Translations under genes and position numbers: made by a program
Notes under the pieces: model-generated
Databases searched by the model: none
The model's input: the letters and a program-made list of their open reading frames with translations, nothing else
What the model was told of the DNA's origin: nothing
Part shown: positions 54,068-62,005 of the stretch, piece after piece
How the letters are laid out: the number at the start of each line of letters is the position of its first letter
How positions within the stretch are numbered: the stretch's first letter is position 1
NCBI RefSeq assembly: GCF_027923555.1
Contig: NZ_AP025523.1
Location: 2,918,484-2,982,483 of the forward strand
Direction of reading: 5' to 3'
Length of the DNA stretch: 64,000 bases
DNA from: Vulcanimicrobium alpinum
Lineage (GTDB): Bacteria > Vulcanimicrobiota > Vulcanimicrobiia > Vulcanimicrobiales > Vulcanimicrobiaceae

Positions 54068-54697
54068 TTACGGCGTCGGCGACGGAGCGGGCATTGCGCC
54101 CGACTTCGCGCTGCCGTGGTGTTTCTTGTGATGCGGCTTCGGCGACGCCATCGCATCGGCCGCCGTCGCCGTCGTTCCCGCCGCGGCGCCGGATGTCGTG
54201 TCGCCCGGCATCGCACCGCCGGTCATCGCGCCGTGGTGCTTCTTGTGATGCGGCTTCGGCGACGCCATCGCATCGGCCGACGTCCCCGTCGCCGCGCCGC
54301 CCGACATTGCGCCGCCGTTCATCGCGCCGCCCGACATCGCGCCGCCGGACATCGCGCCGCCCGACATTGCGCCGCCGTTCATCGCGCCGCCCGACATCGC
54401 GCCGCCCGACATCGCGCCGCCGGACTTCCTCATGAAACCGCCGCTCTTCGCGGCGCGCGCGCCCATCGCGACGGCGGCCGACGTGCACGCGTAGCCGCCA
54501 TGTTTGGTCTTGCCGTAATATTCGCTGCCCTGCGGCCAATAGATCTTCGACGACGTGTTGATCCACACGTTCGGATCAGAGGCCGGACAGTTCACCGGCG
54601 TCGCGGAGAGCTTCTCGGCGGTCCGTGTTTGCGCGATTGCGGCCTGCGAGAGGGCGACGGCGAGAGCCAGGGCGAGGAGCGCAGCACGTCTCTTCAT
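54068..54697 (-). CDS. secreted Met/His-rich repeat protein (candidate metal binder)
   Basis: 209 residues. A signal peptide (ALLALALAVALSQAAIAQ) is followed by a compact domain around residues 35-83, DPNVWINTSSKIYWPQGSEY then YGKTKHGGYACTSAAV, with two Cys; similar small secreted domains are seen in Acidobacteria and related phyla. Next come eight consecutive SGGAM/NGGAM pentapeptides plus SGGAA (about 91-135), giving a Met every five residues. Two copies of ASPKPHHKKHHG follow. Met- and His-rich motifs like these typically bind Cu(I)/Cu(II) or other soft metals. It lies downstream of the copper-protein genes on the same strand, supporting a periplasmic copper-buffering role, which is inference. 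Confidence 0.7.
   Translation of the reverse strand: MKRRAALLALALAVALSQAAIAQTRTAEKLSATPVNCPASDPNVWINTSSKIYWPQGSEYYGKTKHGGYACTSAAVAMGARAAKSGGFMRKSGGAMSGGAMSGGAMNGGAMSGGAMSGGAMSGGAMNGGAMSGGAATGTSADAMASPKPHHKKHHGAMTGGAMPGDTTSGAAAGTTATAADAMASPKPHHKKHHGSAKSGAMPAPSPTP
54113..54279. repeat. 50-bp direct repeat pair in the His-rich region
   Basis: 54113-54162 and 54230-54279 are identical except for one base. They encode the duplicated His-rich block. Confidence 0.85.
54301..54420. repeat. 60-bp tandem duplication of four pentapeptide units
   Basis: 54301-54360 and 54361-54420 are identical except for one base (54347 versus 54407). Each is four 15-base units, giving a higher-order S-S-S-N pattern and a locus prone to copy-number change. 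Confidence 0.9.
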
Positions 54698-54785: not shown

Positions 54786-55928
54786 TCAGCGGCCGCGCGG
54801 CCAGGGGAAGCCGACGGTGAGCGCGCCCTGCAGCGCGGTGGGTCCGCCGGGGATCGGGCGCGACTGCTGGATCAGCACGCGCGCGTGCGCGGTCACGTGC
54901 GCCTCCGCGAACCACAGCAGCGAGCGCGTCGCCGCCGGTGCGGCGAAGCCGTCTTCGCGGACGCCGACGAAGGCGTGATTGCCCAGCCGCCAACGCAGCC
55001 GCGCGAAACCGCCGGTCGAATCGATCCGTCCGCCTTGTCCGTCGCCGTCGTCGTCGCGGCCCCACCATTGCTCGGCGAGGAGTTCGAGGCGGCCGCGGCG
55101 CGCATCGAGCGAGAGCCCCATGCGCCGGTATGCATCCGTGAATCGCGCGCGCCCGAGCGGGACGATCGCAGCGTTCCCCGCGATCGCGTCGGCGCCGACG
55201 CGCACGTTCTCGGCGATCGGCACGCGCGCGTAGAGGCCGTACTCGGGCGTCGCGAACGTTTGCGTGGTTCCGGTGGGAACGGGTTTGCCGCCGTAGGCGG
55301 AACCCGCGCTGTTGCCGTACGCCGCGGTCGCGGCGAGATCGACGTTTCCGACGCGATGCTCGGCTTCGAGCCCCCAACGTGGCGTCGCGAGCGTGAGCTC
55401 ATTGAGCCCCACGCGGGAACCTTCGTAGCCGTAGGTCGTCAGCGTGTCGTTGCGCTGGGCCGGCGAGTGCACCAGCGGCATCTCGAACAGTCCCGCGCGA
55501 TACAGCGTCTTCGAGCGGTCGTCGTGATAGGCGAGGTAGCCGAGAAACAGCGATGACGGGCCGCCCTGACTGCCGAGGCTTTCGTGCACGAACGCCTCGA
55601 CGCGGCCGACTTCGACCGCTCCGAGGAGCGCGCCGGCGGGGACGGTGCGCGTGGTCGAACCGGACGGCGGCGTCTCGGTGTAGCCGACCTGTTCGCGCAG
55701 CGCGACGACGGTCGTTCCGTGCTTGGGCAGCCCGTAGATGCGGTATCCGCGATTGCGGAACTCGTTGCCGAACGCGTTGAGTTCGGGCAGCACGGAGTGG
55801 CACGCGCCGCACTGCAGATTGTAGCGCTGCGCGAAGAGCGGCACCGCCTGCGCGGGGCGCGCGCTCACCGCACCGACGAACGCGATGCCCGCTCCGCACG
55901 CCGCGAGCAGCGCGCGCTCAGCGGACAA
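54786..55928 (-). CDS. outer-membrane beta-barrel with N-terminal CXXCH haem motif
   Basis: 380 residues. After a signal peptide (LLAACGAGIAFVGAVSARPA) comes a cytochrome-like segment YNLQCGACHSVLPELNAFGN with one covalent haem site, FRNRGYRIYG following it. About 300 residues of alternating beta strands with porin character then follow. The combination suggests a haem-bearing outer-membrane barrel for electron transfer or a porin with a redox plug. The TTG start overlaps the stop of the upstream cupredoxin by 11 bases, so the two are made together. No distal haem Met is obvious. The barrel is inferred from strand pattern. Confidence 0.72.
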   Translation of the reverse strand: MSAERALLAACGAGIAFVGAVSARPAQAVPLFAQRYNLQCGACHSVLPELNAFGNEFRNRGYRIYGLPKHGTTVVALREQVGYTETPPSGSTTRTVPAGALLGAVEVGRVEAFVHESLGSQGGPSSLFLGYLAYHDDRSKTLYRAGLFEMPLVHSPAQRNDTLTTYGYEGSRVGLNELTLATPRWGLEAEHRVGNVDLAATAAYGNSAGSAYGGKPVPTGTTQTFATPEYGLYARVPIAENVRVGADAIAGNAAIVPLGRARFTDAYRRMGLSLDARRGRLELLAEQWWGRDDDGDGQGGRIDSTGGFARLRWRLGNHAFVGVREDGFAAPAATRSLLWFAEAHVTAHARVLIQQSRPIPGGPTALQGALTVGFPWPRGR

Positions 55929-56379
55929 CGATCGCCGCGCGCATCGGCGCGCCGTAGTGGAAAAAGCATCCGTACAGGTACGTGCCGGCCTTGTCGGCGA
56001 GGAGCGTCTGCGATGCCGCGCCCGCCGCGAGGTTGCCGGAGCTCCAGCCGCTGGAGAGCGTCGCGCCGGAGGTCGTGAGCGCCGAACCGCCCAGCGGGGA
56101 ACCGGCGGGGAACGTCGCGCCGCCGAACGCGGTCGCGGTGTGCGCGAACGAATCGACGTTCAGAAAGCGCACCGTCGTCCCGACCGCGACGGTCGTGACG
56201 GCCGGCGTATACCCGCCGCTGGTGCCGTACGCCGTCGCGACGACCGACAACCCGGTGAGCGACACGGGGATCGTCACCGCGTTGCCGGGCGCCGCAACGG
56301 GGTTCTCAGCACCCGCCGGCGGAGCGCCGGGCGTGCACGCGACGAGCGCGGAGAGCAGAACAAACGCGGAAACTCGCAC
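55918..56379 (-). CDS. cupredoxin lipoprotein (type-1 copper)
   Basis: 153 residues. The signal peptide ends in LVAC (lipobox Cys15). The cupredoxin fold has VAVGTTVRFLNVDSFAHTAT with the first Cu His. GTYLYGCFFHYGAPMRA supplies Cys, His and Met in the usual C-x3-H-x4-M spacing. Such blue copper proteins shuttle electrons in the periplasm. It is paralogous to the divergent cupredoxin at 58127-58735. Position: after the histidine kinase and before the haem barrel on the same strand. Confidence 0.85.
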   Translation of the reverse strand: MRVSAFVLLSALVACTPGAPPAGAENPVAAPGNAVTIPVSLTGLSVVATAYGTSGGYTPAVTTVAVGTTVRFLNVDSFAHTATAFGGATFPAGSPLGGSALTTSGATLSSGWSSGNLAAGAASQTLLADKAGTYLYGCFFHYGAPMRAAIVVR

Positions 56380-56446: not shown

Positions 56447-57352
56447 TCACACCTCGAACGGCGGCAGCCGCGCGACGAAGCGGTTGCGGCCTTCCAGGGT
56501 CAGGTCGCCGCCGTGCGCGCGCGCGATCGTGCGGCAGATCGCGAGCCCGAGCCCCGTCCCCGCCTTCTCGTCGCTCCCACGCACGAAGCGGCCGAAGATC
56601 CGCGCGCGCACCGCGTCGGGTACGCCCGGCCCATCGTCCTCCACGCTCAGGAGGACGGCGTGCGAAGCGGCGGCGACTTCGACGCGCACGGTCCCCGCGG
56701 CGTGGCGCGACGCGTTTTCGATGAGGTTGTCGGCGAGGCGCCGTAGGCGGCGTTCGTCGCCGACGACCCAAGCGCCGTCGGACGCCGCGACGTCGTACCG
56801 CACGCCGTCGCGCGCCAACTCGGCGACCGCCGTGCGCGCGACGCTCGCGAGATCGACCGGTTCGGAGAGTCGCGCCGCGACGGTCTCTTCGCGCACGAGC
56901 GTCAGCAGGTCGCCGACGGTCTGCGCCGCGTCGACCGCGATCCGCGCAATCCGCTCGAGGGCGTCGGGCGGCGGACTCTGTGTGAGGCCCGCGATGCGCG
57001 CCAGCGGCGTGCGCAGTTCGTGCGCCGCTTCGGCGGCGAAGCGCGCCTCGCGTTCGCGGGCTTCGACGAGCGGACGCACCGCGAAGAGCGCGAGGACGTA
57101 CGACGCCGCGCCAACGACGAGCAGCAGCGGCAGGTCGAGCAGGGCGAGGCCGATGCCGATCCGGCGCAGCGCGGCGTCGTACACCGCACGTCCCTCCGGA
57201 GTTCCCAGCAGCGGCTCGAGCAGATCGTGCTGGACGCGCGCGAGATACGCGAACTCGGCTGCGTCGAGCGCGATCAGCACGACGACGAAGACCGCGAGAA
57301 ACGACGCCGCGAGGCGCGCGACTACGCGTGCAATGAGTACCCGACTCCCCAC
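56447..57352 (-). CDS. sensor histidine kinase
   Basis: 301 residues with two membrane helices (about 8-30 and 68-92) enclosing a small ~38-residue periplasmic loop. The dimerisation box is RFAAEAAHELRTPLARIAGL (phospho-His), the N box LRRLADNLIENASRH, and the G boxes SVEDDGPGVPDAVRARIF and GTGLGLAICRTIARAHGGDL. No HAMP or PAS domain is evident, so sensing is through the short loop or membrane. The start lies 31 bases inside the response-regulator gene, and the two are one operon. The copper-protein context suggests a metal or redox signal. Confidence 0.92.
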   Translation of the reverse strand: MGSRVLIARVVARLAASFLAVFVVVLIALDAAEFAYLARVQHDLLEPLLGTPEGRAVYDAALRRIGIGLALLDLPLLLVVGAASYVLALFAVRPLVEAREREARFAAEAAHELRTPLARIAGLTQSPPPDALERIARIAVDAAQTVGDLLTLVREETVAARLSEPVDLASVARTAVAELARDGVRYDVAASDGAWVVGDERRLRRLADNLIENASRHAAGTVRVEVAAASHAVLLSVEDDGPGVPDAVRARIFGRFVRGSDEKAGTGLGLAICRTIARAHGGDLTLEGRNRFVARLPPFEV

Positions 57353-57990
57353 ACCGTTGTGATGCGGTCGCGTGCGCCGGCCGCCGCGAGCTTGCGGCGC
57401 ACCGCGCTGACGTACACGTCGACGACGTTGCTCGATCCGTCGAAGTCATCGCCCCAAACGCGCTCGAGGATCTGCGCGCGGCTGAGCGCGAGCCCGGCGT
57501 TGGCGGCGAGATACTCGAGCAGCCGGAACTCCGTCGCACCCAGCGGGACGTCGCGCCCGGCGATGCGCACGGTGCGCGCGCCGAGATCGACGACGAGATC
57601 ACCGACCTCGATCGTCGGCCGCAGGGCGAGCGGCGCGCGACGCAAGAGCGCGCGCACGCGCGCGGCGAGCTCCGCCTCGACGAACGGTTTCACCAGGTAA
57701 TCGTCGGCGCCGGCGTCGAGACCGCGCACGCGATCTTCGACCGCGTCGCGCGCGGTAAGGATCAGCACCGGCGTGGCGACTCCTTCGGCACGCGCGTCGC
57801 GGCACAGCGCGAAGCCGTCGCGTCCGGGCAGGACGACGTCGACGACCGCGGCGTCGTACGTGCCGCGCAGCAGCAGCTCGTAACCCGCCTCGCCGTCGCA
57901 CGCGACGTCGACGGCGTATTTTCGCCGTTCGAGCATCATCCGCAGCGCGTCCGCAATCTCGCGCTGGTCTTCGACCACCAGGATGCGCAC
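57322..57990 (-). CDS. OmpR-family response regulator
   Basis: 222 residues. The receiver domain is RILVVEDQREIADALRMML (acidic pair), AAVVDVVLPGRDGF with the phospho-acceptor Asp, LILTARD and YLVKPF. The C-terminal winged helix is LGATEFRLLEYLAANAGLAL, then LERVWGDDFDGSSNVVDVYV and WGVGYSLHA. The GTG at 57990 was chosen because the receiver strand begins there; a GTG at 58023 would add 11 residues. First gene of a minus-strand operon RR, HK, cupredoxin, haem barrel, and divergent from the second cupredoxin. Confidence 0.92.
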   Translation of the reverse strand: MRILVVEDQREIADALRMMLERRKYAVDVACDGEAGYELLLRGTYDAAVVDVVLPGRDGFALCRDARAEGVATPVLILTARDAVEDRVRGLDAGADDYLVKPFVEAELAARVRALLRRAPLALRPTIEVGDLVVDLGARTVRIAGRDVPLGATEFRLLEYLAANAGLALSRAQILERVWGDDFDGSSNVVDVYVSAVRRKLAAAGARDRITTVWGVGYSLHA

Positions 57991-58126
57991 CGTTATGTCG
58001 TTCGCCACGCTCCATCGGAGCACCGTTGTGTGAAGAGTTTCTGAACCCGCGCGCGCCGTGCTTTCACCGGCGTCTCAACCGCTCGCTCTACGGTGGCGGC
58101 GTTCACCGCACTTCGGAGGGATGGTT

Positions 58127-58735
58127 ATGGTTCATCGTAGGTTCGCCGCGATTGCGGCGTTGAGCATCGCCGCGGGCCTCGCCGCTTGCGGCGGCGGAGG
58201 CAGCACCGGCGGCGGGGGTTCCGTCGCGCCGCCGCCGACCGGCACCACACCGACGCCCGTGCCGACGCCGACGTTGTCGACGCAGCAAGTCGTGACGATG
58301 GCGCTGCCGTCGACCGCGATCGGTGTCGTCACCGATCCCACCTACGGCAGCCTCGGCGGATACACGCAATCCGTCTACTCGCAGTCGCTGGGTTTCGCAC
58401 CCGGCAGCCAGATCATGATCCGCAACGGCCAAGCCGGCGTGCCGCATACCCTCAACGTGGTCTCCACGACGAGTTTTCCGGCGTCGCCGGCGCTCTCCAC
58501 GACCGCCGCCGGCGGCACGACGATCGGCGCCGACTTCGCGTCGGGTACCGTTGCCGGCTCGACGACGGTCGGTCCGTTCACGCTCAGCCCGGGCACCTAC
58601 TACCTCGGCTGCGCGTTCCACTACGCCTCCTCCGCAATGCGCACGGTTCTCAACGTGTCGGCCGGCGCGACGCCGGGACCGCAGGCCACGCCCGCGCCGT
58701 CGGCGACCCAGCCGCCGTGCATCTACTGCTACTGA
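58127..58735 (+). CDS. cupredoxin lipoprotein (paralogue)
   Basis: 202 residues. Signal peptide with lipobox LAAC, then a Gly/Pro/Thr-rich linker. The cupredoxin domain contains GVPHTLNV (Cu His) and GTYYLGCAFHYASSAM (Cys, His, Met). A C-terminal Pro/Ala tail ends CIYCY, adding a CxxC. GGAGG lies 7 bases before ATG 58127; an ATG two codons earlier touches the GGAGG and is unlikely. It shares the GGYT, FPA and GTYxxGCxFHY features with the cupredoxin at 55918-56379, so the two are paralogues on divergent transcripts flanking the two-component genes. Confidence 0.85.
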   Translation: MVHRRFAAIAALSIAAGLAACGGGGSTGGGGSVAPPPTGTTPTPVPTPTLSTQQVVTMALPSTAIGVVTDPTYGSLGGYTQSVYSQSLGFAPGSQIMIRNGQAGVPHTLNVVSTTSFPASPALSTTAAGGTTIGADFASGTVAGSTTVGPFTLSPGTYYLGCAFHYASSAMRTVLNVSAGATPGPQATPAPSATQPPCIYCY

Positions 58736-59262
58736 CGGGAGCGCTCGCGCTCGCCGCATCGCTCGCGGTCCCGGCCTCGGCCGGTACCGCGCGCGACGCG
58801 CGCGACGTTCCGGTCGTCGATCAGGCCGGCACGACCTTCACCCTGCGCGACCTCCGCCGCCCCACCGCCGTCGTGTTCATCGATTTGGATTGCGACGACG
58901 CGTGCACGATCGCCGAAGGCGTGTTCGCCAAACTCGCCGTCGCGCTCGACAAAGAGCACGTCGACGCGCGGCTGGTCACGCTGACCCTGGACCCCGAGGC
59001 CGATCCGCCGATCGCGATGGCGGCGATGGCGCGCAGATTCGGAGCCGACGCGACGCGCTGGCACTGGGCCAGCGGCGCGCCCGCGAACGTGAAGGCGCTG
59101 ATGAGCGCGTTTCACGTCGTGCGCGTCAACCGTACGGAACACAGCACGTTCTGCTATCTGCTCGACGCGCACGGCCTGCCGTCGCGCGTGATCCCGCTCT
59201 CAACGGCCGCCGACGGGGAACTGCTCGCCGGACTGCGCGCGCTGGCGCACCGCCGCACCTAG
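58717..59262 (+). CDS. SCO1/SenC-like thioredoxin-fold protein
   Basis: 181 residues with a signal peptide (LLLLTGALALAASLAVPASA). The thioredoxin fold has PTAVVFIDLDCDDACTIAEG, where Cys-x3-Cys is the SCO metal/redox pair. The conserved His follows in NRTEHSTFCYLLDAHG. SCO proteins deliver copper to the CuA site of cytochrome oxidase or act as copper-dependent reductases. The GTG at 58717 overlaps the end of the cupredoxin gene by 19 bases, indicating coupled translation. Its TAG stop shares the palindrome CTAG with the convergent TPR gene. Confidence 0.82.
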   Translation: MHLLLLTGALALAASLAVPASAGTARDARDVPVVDQAGTTFTLRDLRRPTAVVFIDLDCDDACTIAEGVFAKLAVALDKEHVDARLVTLTLDPEADPPIAMAAMARRFGADATRWHWASGAPANVKALMSAFHVVRVNRTEHSTFCYLLDAHGLPSRVIPLSTAADGELLAGLRALAHRRT

Positions 59263-60065
59263 ATCCGGTCGCGCAGATCGATCGCCAGCGCGCGGAGTGC
59301 CGGGTCCGCGGCGTCGCGCGCGCAGCGATCGAACGCGACGCGCGCGTCGTCGCGCCGTCCGTCACGCAGCAGCACGGTCCCGAGCGCAAAGCGCGCCCGC
59401 GCGTACCCCGGTGCGAGCGCGAGCGCCCGTTCGAGTTCGGAGCGCGCGGCGTCGTCGTTCCCGTCGCGCAGGGCGATCAGCGCCAGGTCGTAGTGCGCCA
59501 CCGCGTACGACGGATCGGCGTCGAGCAGGGCGCGGAAGTCGGCGCGGGCCGCCGCCAAATCGCCGGTACGCAGCGCGGTGATCGCGCGCGCGTAACGAGC
59601 CAGGACTCCGTCGGGCGTGAGCGCGACGAAACGGTCCGCCGCCGCGCGGGCGGCGGCGAGGTCGCCGCGGCGCAGATCTACCGCGACGAGGGTCGCGGCG
59701 GCGGCTGCGAAATGCGGATCGCGATGAAGCGCGTCGTCGAGGAGGGTCGCTGCGGCGTCGTTGCGCCCGAGGTGCGCATCGGCGAGCGCGAGATCGTAGC
59801 GCGCCGTCGAGCCGCGCGGTTCGGGCGGATCGAGCGCGATGATGCGCGCGAACTCCGGGACGGCCGCCGCCCAATCGCCGCGCGTCTCGGCCGCGACGCC
59901 GCGTTCGAAGCGTTCGTGAATCTCTCGCGCCCGCGTTTGCGCCGCCAGCGCGCCGGGGTCGAGCGTGCGCGGCGGGGCGCCGCCCCTCGGATAGGTTTGC
60001 GCCGCGACGGCGCCCGCCGTCGCGACGAAGGCGAGCAGCGACGCGACGAGCGCGCGAGCGGCCAT
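59259..60065 (-). CDS. secreted TPR-repeat protein
   Basis: 268 residues. Signal peptide (ALVASLLAFVATAGAVAAQ), then roughly six to seven 34-residue TPR units. Examples are AAVPEFARIIALDPPEPRGS, LLDDALHRDPHFAAAAATLV, ADFRALLDADPSYAVAHYDL and SELERALALAPGYARARFAL. It is a periplasmic scaffold of unknown partner. The ATG at 60065 starts one base after the stop of the upstream small secreted gene, so the two are coupled. Convergent with the SCO-like gene. Confidence 0.82.
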   Translation of the reverse strand: MAARALVASLLAFVATAGAVAAQTYPRGGAPPRTLDPGALAAQTRAREIHERFERGVAAETRGDWAAAVPEFARIIALDPPEPRGSTARYDLALADAHLGRNDAAATLLDDALHRDPHFAAAAATLVAVDLRRGDLAAARAAADRFVALTPDGVLARYARAITALRTGDLAAARADFRALLDADPSYAVAHYDLALIALRDGNDDAARSELERALALAPGYARARFALGTVLLRDGRRDDARVAFDRCARDAADPALRALAIDLRDRI

Positions 60066-60066
60066 C

Positions 60067-60306
60067 TCAGTCCTGCGGCAACGCTGCGCCGGCCGCGGTG
60101 CGCGCCCGCGCGGCGTGTTCCGGTACGCAGTCCCAGCCCGTCCGGCCGCTCTCGGTGATCGGTCCAAGGAGCCCCGGCGCCGAACTCCACGGCAGCGCGG
60201 CAGGGTCGCCCGCGAGCAGTTCCGCGCCCGCGGCGGCGCCGGCGCTCGCGACGATGGCGAGCGCCGCAACGATCGCCAGACGCCGGAGGAGCTTCATCCC
60301 TGCCAT
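60067..60306 (-). CDS. small secreted hypothetical protein
   Basis: 79 residues. Signal peptide (KLLRRLAIVAALAIVASAGA) followed by a ~50-residue mature part with one Cys (TGWDCVPEHA) and no recognised motif. Three ATGs (60309, 60306, 60297) are possible; 60306 is chosen on weak AGG spacing. It precedes the TPR gene by one base and may be its partner. Confidence 0.5.
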   Translation of the reverse strand: MAGMKLLRRLAIVAALAIVASAGAAAGAELLAGDPAALPWSSAPGLLGPITESGRTGWDCVPEHAARARTAAGAALPQD

Positions 60307-62005
60307 CATACGCCTGGGACGTGAAGGGTTCCTGAGTGCCGTCCTCACGTGCTGCCTGGCCGCCGCGGCGCTTCCCGCCCGAGCCGACGAGCTCGTGGTC
60401 GGCATCCTCCGGGATCAGGACGGCGCCGTCGTGACGGGGGCACGGGTGACCGCGCTCGACGCGGCGGGGCGGGCGCTCGCCGCCGACCACTCGGCGGCGG
60501 ACGGCACCTTCGCACTCGCCGCGCCGCAGCGGCCGGCGATGCTGACCGTCTCCGCCGACGATGCGGACCCGCTCCGCGTCGCTGTCCCGCTCGACGGCGC
60601 CGTCACCGCGATCGTCCGCCGCCATCGGGCCGCCGACGCCGTCCCGAGCGCGGCCGACGTCGCGGCGCTACCGGCGGGATCGCTGGCCGAGATCGGGACG
60701 TCGATCCCGTACTGGATCGCGGTTCGCGGCGCGCTCGGCGATCGTTGGCTGGCGCGCGGCCGCGGCGTGACGACGATCGAGTCGCTGCCGTTCTACCGTC
60801 GCGGAGACGGGACCGACGCGTCGACGCTGCTGCCCTCGCACGCGATCGGTGCGGTGACGACGGTCGATCCGCTGCGCGCTCCGTCGTACGGCGACCGCGC
60901 CGGCGGCGGCGCGATCGACGCGCGGCTGTTCGACCGCGTCGACGCGCTGCGTGCGACGAATCGCGATGCGGTCCTCGCGGCGGGGAACGCCGCGCGTGCG
61001 CTGATCGCGCAGTCGTGGGACCCCGACGGAGAACGGCGCTTCGCCGCCGGCGAGGCGACGGGGCGCGTCGGCCCGATCGCTGCGACGTTGGTCGCGCTGG
61101 CCGGCGATCTGCCGCATGCGGCGTACGCCGGAGCCGGCACCGTGCTGCGCGGCGCAACGCGCACCTTCGACGTCACCGGTGCGCTGGCGCTAACGCGGGA
61201 CGCGGCAACGGACGGAATCGTCGACGGCGGCAGCGTCGCGTCGGCGGTCTTCGACGTCGCGGCGCGCGGCCCGAACGCGCTGTCGACGCGCCTGCGGTGG
61301 CGCAGCGAGAGCGGGATCGCCGGCACCGCTGCGAGCACGCACCGCGACGCGGCGATCGTCGTCGGCGCTTCGCGCGGGAGCGACGGCGGCCTGCGCGTGA
61401 ACGCCGATCTTGCGCTCGCATACGGCAGCGATCGCACTGAAGACGGGCCGACGCGCACGGCTCTGGCGCTGCTGCCCTCGCTCGAACTCGAGGCGCTGCT
61501 CGGCGGCGGCTGGACCGCGCGGGCGGGCGCCGGCGCGTCGACCCTCGGGACGCCCGGCGTCGCGCTCGCGCGCGCGTCGCTGGCGCAAGCCGGCTTCCAG
61601 TACTCCGACCGTCGCCGCCTGCGGTTCGAAGCGCTTGCGTACGCGGAGAGCACCGATGCGCCGTCGGCGCTGACGCGCGGGTTCGCCGCTGGCGCCGGAT
61701 GGGAGATCGCGCCGCGGTTGTCGCTGCGCGCCTGGACGCTCAACGATGCCGACCGCGAACAGCGTCTCGTGCAGGCCGTCGAGGACGGTCCGTACGGCGC
61801 CGTCCTGGTGCGCCGGCCGTTTCGGCGCGGTCTCGCGTGGCTGACGTGGGATGCACCGGTGCGCATCGACCTGCTCGTCCGCGCGGGCGCGCTCGAAGGC
61901 GATGCGCGCATCCCGCTGGGCGCGCATGCCGCGCTCGTCGTCGGTTCGGCACGGCGCGTCGAGGGCGCGCAGCGGCAGCTGTCGATCGGGCTGACGGCGC
62001 GCTGA
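60254..62005 (+). CDS. TonB-receptor-like outer-membrane protein with carboxypeptidase-regulatory-like domain
   Basis: About 583 residues from ATG 60254. After a signal region (SAVLTCCLAAAALPARA) comes an Ig-like carboxypeptidase-regulatory domain: VVGILRDQDGAVVTGARVTA, then AADGTFAL. A plug-like part follows (IESLPFYRRGDGTDASTLLP, then SYGDRAGGGAIDARLFDRVD), and a barrel of about 350 residues. It is shorter than ordinary TonB receptors and no TonB box was seen. The start is uncertain: 60254 overlaps the divergent small gene by 53 bases, and no other ATG, GTG or TTG is close to the signal peptide. Confidence 0.6.
   Translation: MASAATIARRRRSFIPAIIRLGREGFLSAVLTCCLAAAALPARADELVVGILRDQDGAVVTGARVTALDAAGRALAADHSAADGTFALAAPQRPAMLTVSADDADPLRVAVPLDGAVTAIVRRHRAADAVPSAADVAALPAGSLAEIGTSIPYWIAVRGALGDRWLARGRGVTTIESLPFYRRGDGTDASTLLPSHAIGAVTTVDPLRAPSYGDRAGGGAIDARLFDRVDALRATNRDAVLAAGNAARALIAQSWDPDGERRFAAGEATGRVGPIAATLVALAGDLPHAAYAGAGTVLRGATRTFDVTGALALTRDAATDGIVDGGSVASAVFDVAARGPNALSTRLRWRSESGIAGTAASTHRDAAIVVGASRGSDGGLRVNADLALAYGSDRTEDGPTRTALALLPSLELEALLGGGWTARAGAGASTLGTPGVALARASLAQAGFQYSDRRRLRFEALAYAESTDAPSALTRGFAAGAGWEIAPRLSLRAWTLNDADREQRLVQAVEDGPYGAVLVRRPFRRGLAWLTWDAPVRIDLLVRAGALEGDARIPLGAHAALVVGSARRVEGAQRQLSIGLTAR

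Follow-up and report, generated by a model that had tools for sequence, protein, structure and literature searches.

A Cyc2-like fused cytochrome-porin with a blue-copper partner gene in Vulcanimicrobium alpinum: a candidate outer-membrane electron conduit

What is the role of a protein that appears to join a single haem to an outer-membrane barrel in one chain? The question is raised by a reading frame of Vulcanimicrobium alpinum, here called BAR, which lies at 54786 to 55928 on the minus strand of the window, the 64,000-nucleotide stretch of DNA that was analysed (GC 69.6%). The genome of this bacterium is a single contig of 3.508 Mb. A sequence-only reading of the frame had offered two ideas, namely that a fusion with one haem is a different solution from that of the known multihaem conduits, or that the haem gates the pore.

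A conserved haem module ahead of a predicted barrel

BAR encodes 380 amino acids from a TTG start, which lies inside the 3' end of the upstream gene with an overlap of 11 bp. By inspection, residues 1 to 28 (55845 to 55928, minus strand) were judged to form a putative signal peptide, with an arginine in the n-region, a hydrophobic core and the ending ARPAQA, which is followed by VPLFAQRYNLQCGACHSVLPELNAFGNEFRNRGYR and then by some 300 strand-rich residues. The core of the haem module, AVPLFAQRYNLQCGACHSVLPEL (residues 28 to 50; 55779 to 55847, minus strand), is the counterpart of the Cyc2 signature (consensus from PMC8406198) and includes the haem-attachment motif CGACH (residues 40 to 44; 55797 to 55811, minus strand). 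The only cysteine besides those of the CXXCH is residue 11, within the putative signal peptide.

Shuffling the BAR protein produced a CXXCH in 0.05% of cases and did not once, in 20,000 shuffles, produce the wider motif A.P.FA...CxxCHxxxPxL; a six-frame scan of the window found this wider motif once, in BAR itself. The haem-attachment motif was retained in 51 of 51 homologues, and the residues conserved in 100% of this alignment were C40, C43 and H44 together with A28, P30, F32, P48, L50, F53, G54, F57 and G61. The invariance of the CXXCH and of nine residues around it in 51 homologues shows that the motif is not a product of chance, and BAR is a real, well-conserved feature. The earlier description of a single CGACH following the signal peptide in a conserved-looking segment was therefore borne out, and the homologues lacking a CXXCH that could have overturned it did not occur. 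With regard to a second haem ligand, no histidine or methionine outside the CXXCH was invariant in the alignment of the BAR clade; the best-placed candidate is His70, present in 42 of 47 sequences.

AlphaFold2, run on BAR with a 44-sequence alignment, predicted a beta-barrel of 16 strands spanning residues 72 to 374 (54807 to 55715, minus strand; mean pLDDT 84.2, pTM 0.80). With this model, Foldseek against the PDB retrieved the 16-stranded porins OmpU, OmpF-type porins, Omp32 and PorB, with a best E of 8.6e-12 and TM values of about 0.5-0.6, while the sole gain against viral structures was a match to a phosphate-selective-porin-like protein. The roughly 300 residues of porin-like strands seen earlier behind the haem motif thus hold as a prediction, and the check by structure prediction returned a barrel and not some other fold. 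The cytochrome part (residues 22-50) was of low confidence and poorly ordered in the model, which was built without haem. At the level of sequence, six of the 44 members of the BAR family matched Pfam Porin_O_P weakly (best E 3.6e-4), and OprO and OprP are porins that have been named as structural homologues of Cyc2 (PMC8406198). Pfam and NCBIfam searches with the BAR protein assigned no family, and no solved structure was matched by sequence search. The best Pfam match of BAR, a plant zinc ribbon, was taken as noise because it matched through the CxxC.

One loop of the barrel deserves separate mention. Residues 287-307 (window about 55008-55070) carry the invariant residues G290, D292, D296, G306 and G307, and the loop is EF-hand-like, with a DxDxDG-like composition in relatives. 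Judged by this composition, it is a possible metal-binding site.

Relation to Cyc2 and distribution in the phylum

In Cyc2, a protein already described, a monohaem cytochrome and a 16-stranded porin form one chain; its signature is AXPXFAR[Q/K][T/Y]...CXXCH...PXL, and it has been shown biochemically to oxidise Fe(II) (PMC8406198). We compared BAR with the strict criteria of that study and with Cyc2-type plasmid proteins of Acidithiobacillus, Methylocystis, Caballeronia, Paraburkholderia, Ideonella and Polymorphobacter. Alignment of the BAR profile with a profile of six Cyc2-type plasmid proteins using hhalign gave a probability of 98.4% (E 9e-15); the aligned region took in the haem module plus the first strands and left out the remainder of the barrel. 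This profile comparison, one of the checks proposed for fusions of a CXXCH with a barrel, indicates that the haem module of BAR is homologous to that of Cyc2. The best tblastn match to the Cyc2-type plasmid proteins, which are not the published queries, had an E of 2e-3, the published criterion being a blastp value of 1e-5 or better.

BAR has a single CXXCH after the signal peptide (the latter judged by inspection), a PXL four residues past it (P48-E-L50, the proline and leucine being invariant), 380 residues where at least 365 are called for, and a C-terminal 16-stranded porin as a prediction. Where the strict signature has AXPXFAR[Q/K][T/Y], BAR reads AVPLFAQRY, and FAQRY or FAERY is found throughout its clade. 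Under a broader definition, which covers any 16-stranded porin joined to a homologous monohaem module, BAR with its predicted barrel belongs with the Cyc2-like proteins. In a tree of 97 columns, the BAR clade stood apart from seven Cyc2-type rows with 100/100 support, and apart from other one-haem porins of the phylum as well; the published Cyc2 tree holds 1,593 sequences in Clusters 1-3 (PMC8406198). Because the strict signature is absent, the pairwise similarity is weak and the clade is separate, we class BAR on sequence grounds as a Cyc2-like sister group rather than as Cyc2 proper. The idea of a different solution accordingly stands in part: the fusion, the predicted barrel and the invariant CXXCH were all upheld, but the architecture is already known, being that of Cyc2 (PMC8406198).

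The Cyc2 signature appears to grade between groups, since FARQY or FARQL occurs in some relatives within the phylum (L090, L086 and L087) and L086 and L087 group with the Cyc2-type rows in the same tree; the paralogue L090, with FARQY, satisfies the strict motif. L086 and L087, from genomes G007 and G008 of another family of the phylum, are one-haem porins with FARQL(G/D)VNC(D/N)ECHTVWPRL, and by their sequences are possibly closer relatives of Cyc2 within the phylum.

Strong BAR matches (E below 1e-50) were found in 68 of 149 genomes of the phylum, all of them in one class (families f1, f2 and f3), and matches of any strength in 117 of 149. The profile of six Cyc2-type plasmid proteins matched BAR-like proteins in 114 of the 149 genomes, and a single-sequence scan of genome contigs with BAR returned two close relatives only. 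No relative of the BAR family was found in the viral contigs searched; one Cyc2-type contig was observed among them. The V. alpinum genome encodes a second one-haem porin (L036:8270-9349; C1:538404-539336, minus strand), which is ~30% identical to BAR and has the motif AIPYFAHEYGLACQKCHTVVPRLNDFG. Another fusion type was also seen: L101 and other matches of the Cyc2-type profile, spread over many genomes of the phylum, have open frames of about 570-660 aa, which start with a similar haem module (e.g. AVPVFANGQGVSCEACHTTFPGM) and are about 200 residues longer.

A predicted copper partner and a conserved gene cluster

The most informative part of the locus, unmentioned in the earlier reading, is the gene directly upstream of BAR, which encodes a predicted blue-copper (plastocyanin-family) lipoprotein of 153 aa, here called CUP1 (55918 to 56379, minus strand). 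CUP1 matches Pfam PF00127 (E 9.2e-5), and a profile search leads to solved plastocyanins and pseudoazurins. The AlphaFold2 model (pLDDT 88.7) was matched by Foldseek to purple cupredoxin, plastocyanin and auracyanin, so that CUP1 combines a predicted cupredoxin fold with the His, Cys, His and Met ligands of the plastocyanin family. These ligands (His80, Cys138, His141 and Met146) were invariant in 47 of 47 sequences and the lipobox Cys15 in 34 of 34, on which account CUP1 is predicted to be a lipid-anchored type-1 copper protein; the spacing C-x2-H-x4-M is that of the type-1 ligand set of electron-transfer cupredoxins.

A CUP1 homologue was present in all 38 loci examined from the class Eremiobacteriia, and lay immediately upstream of BAR, in the same orientation, in 37 of them, the exception being L062, where the CUP1 copies sit in the divergent half of the cluster. 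The pairing extends over three families of this class and persists where BAR identity has dropped to 32%, and overlapping CUP1 and BAR frames, such as translationally coupled genes have, were seen in the window and in L065. This pairing suggests a two-part device that would carry electrons across the outer membrane. Four of the more distant one-haem porins of the phylum (L036, L073, L074 and L075), one of which is V. alpinum's own second copy, showed no CUP1-like neighbour. The plasmid Cyc2-type genes examined mostly adjoin c-type cytochromes, in contrast to BAR with its blue-copper lipoprotein; we observed direct adjacency for L034, L035, L078 and L079 (Caballeronia, Methylocystis, Ideonella and Polymorphobacter). 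The Caballeronia gene also has a HiPIP gene nearby, and its annotated start cuts off the haem motif.

ORF clustering was swamped by shadow frames in this GC-rich DNA, and the presence of neighbours was therefore counted by tblastn with the named neighbours across the 38 loci. A sensor histidine kinase (56447 to 57352, minus strand; HisKA, HATPase_c) and an OmpR-type response regulator (57322 to 58023, minus strand; Response_reg, Trans_reg_C) were each found in 28 of 38 loci. Beyond them, in divergent orientation, lies a second cupredoxin-like lipoprotein, CUP2 (58127 to 58735, plus strand; C-x2-H-x5-M; 16/38), which is related to CUP1 by tblastn and whose homologue in L004 weakly matches PF00127. 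It is followed by a SCO1/SenC-like copper chaperone with an approximate start (58732 to 59262, plus strand; PF02630, E 7.3e-13; 25/38), an exported TPR protein (59259 to 60065, minus strand; TPR_16, E 1.9e-21; 28/38), a small exported protein that is a conserved cluster member (60067 to 60405, minus strand; 25/38), and a probable outer-membrane barrel with a carboxypeptidase-regulatory-like N-terminal domain (60098 to 62005, plus strand, the true start probably being near 60350; PF13620, E 5.5e-6, under the gathering score; 26/38).

The larger cluster, with this second barrel, the small exported protein, the TPR protein, CUP2, SCO1, CUP1, BAR, the response regulator and the histidine kinase, occurs in family f1 and partly in f2. 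In family f3 the CUP1-BAR pair was found alone, and we therefore regard this pair as the core of the cluster. A probable role for SCO1 is the supply of copper to the cupredoxins, and the cluster is probably regulated by the two-component system. We found no description of this conserved cluster of up to nine genes in the literature. Directly downstream of BAR (54068-54697, minus strand) lies an exported protein with a GGAMS-type repeat tract, which weakly matches the pentapeptide MXKDX repeat family and part of which was found in one relative only (L037).

A candidate conduit, its alternatives and known systems

From these sequence comparisons, we consider it moderately probable that BAR, as a Cyc2-like fused cytochrome-porin, conducts electrons across the outer membrane from a dissolved reductant to CUP1. 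The haem module would sit at the periplasmic mouth of the barrel, where its haem would be reduced by a small dissolved reductant entering the pore from outside. The haem would in turn reduce the type-1 copper of the neighbouring CUP1 lipoprotein, and CUP1 would hand the electron on to a respiratory or photosynthetic electron-transport chain in the periplasm. The leading candidate donor, by homology only, would be Fe(II). In favour of such a conduit are the homology of the haem module to Cyc2 and the shared order of parts, the invariant CXXCH, the constant pairing with CUP1 and the presence of SCO1 in 25 of 38 clusters; in addition, the V. alpinum genome carries COX1 (terminal oxidase), RuBisCO and type II reaction-centre genes, which could use such electrons. 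The weak pairwise similarity to Cyc2, the departure from its strict signature, the barrels that do not align past the first strands, the lack of an invariant second haem ligand and the published description of V. alpinum, which reports no growth dependent on iron (PMC9758169), count against it. The published description of strain WC8-2 likewise gives a genome of 3.50 Mb with 68.4% GC, RuBisCO 1E and reaction centre II (PMC9758169).

A narrower form of the proposal would make BAR, like Cyc2, an oxidase of Fe(II) in particular, serving energy or supplying electrons to photosynthesis and CO2 fixation; this is possible, though we lean against it. The homology of the haem modules argues for it, as do the RuBisCO, reaction-centre and COX1 genes and the earlier report, for a genome of Eremiobacterota from acid mine drainage, of a Cyc2-like protein (PMC8357290). 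It is opposed by the position of BAR outside the seven Cyc2-type sequences and by its deviating signature, and the function of the divergent Cluster 3 homologues of Cyc2 is the one its authors call most uncertain (PMC8406198). Moreover, a text search of the V. alpinum description found no iron-dependent growth and no "plastocyanin", the word "iron" occurring in the reference list only (PMC9758169). A more tentative variant, about which we are somewhat more doubtful, takes the family as a distinct, class-wide Eremiobacteriia branch of fused cytochrome-porins with a dedicated lipid-anchored plastocyanin partner and a conserved gene cluster of as many as nine members, and would have it use another substrate, such as copper, in place of Fe(II) or in addition to it. 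That the barrel and haem instead handle the redox state or entry of copper, in a circuit that also takes in two cupredoxins, SCO1, the second barrel and the two-component regulator, seems unlikely to us: copper proteins and SCO1 do dominate the cluster, with which the regulator pair is associated in 28 of 38 loci, but the type-1 ligands and C-x2-H-x4-M spacing of CUP1 are those of electron-transfer cupredoxins, SCO1 could be a mere copper loader, and a c-type haem is not a usual part of copper transport.

Neither the BAR sequence nor the fold dictates which way the electrons flow, and porin-cytochrome conduits can work both ways, since MtrA, known for export, can conduct inward too (PMC10734462). 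Even so, it is quite improbable that BAR is an exporter reducing an external acceptor, because those Cyc2 proteins for which tests are reported are oxidases (PMC8406198) and V. alpinum is an aerobe that showed no anaerobic growth with the acceptors tested (PMC9758169). Least credible of all is a haem that is structural, or that acts as a gas or redox switch gating the pore. As no second haem ligand is invariant, a five-coordinate haem is possible, which would suit such a role, but the constant pairing with an electron-transfer copper protein has no place in gating and the homologous haem of Cyc2 is redox-active with Fe(II) (PMC8406198). The gating suggested by the sequence-only reading thus found no support; the nearest idea in the literature is the proposal that the Cyc2 cytochrome plugs the periplasmic mouth of the barrel while passing electrons (PMC8406198).

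If the conduit proposal is true, much of the class Eremiobacteriia, most knowledge of which comes from genomes, possesses a putative means of drawing in electrons from the cell exterior. V. alpinum, the first cultured member, is an aerobic phototroph that has RuBisCO but no settled electron source for CO2 fixation, the driver of which was left open in its description (PMC9758169); because it is cultured, the conduit proposal can be tested directly. Downstream electron transport in neutrophilic Cyc2 pathways is largely unknown (PMC8406198), and the pairing with CUP1 points to a specific electron partner of a monohaem porin.

Among known systems, it is Cyc2 (Acidithiobacillus ferrooxidans, Mariprofundus ferrooxydans PV-1; Cyt572 of Leptospirillum) that provides the architecture: BAR shares with it the signal peptide, a short, homologous N-terminal haem module with A.P.FA before a single CXXCH, the PXL and 16 strands, all in one chain. 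It differs in having FAQRY/FAERY for FAR[QK][TY], 380 aa against mostly 400 or more, and a barrel that cannot be aligned by sequence. What is new here is the lineage-specific branch and its constant copper partner, for which we found no report. The cyc2 operon of Acidithiobacillus includes copper proteins (PMC8406198, PMC10654088), and this rus operon (cyc2-cyc1-cup-cox-rus) resembles the BAR cluster in encoding a monohaem cytochrome-porin with cupredoxins (PMC10654088); in the BAR cluster, however, no cyc1 or oxidase genes were seen, and SCO1, the TPR protein, another barrel and a two-component system are found instead. Slit_1812-1818 of Sideroxydans lithotrophicus ES-1, which is more highly expressed on magnetite, is similar by its description in that several cupredoxins occur with a SCO1/SenC protein and a predicted cytochrome, but no fused cytochrome-porin is described there (PMC12016527). 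MtrCAB, MtoAB and PioAB also move electrons with an outer-membrane barrel and haem. These systems, however, employ a separate 26-stranded barrel and cytochromes of 10 haems or larger, and BAR does not show the MtrCAB/MtoAB arrangement of a separate multihaem cytochrome held in such a barrel; the contrast with MtrCAB drawn from the sequence alone was correct, since BAR has one haem motif and 16 predicted strands in one chain.
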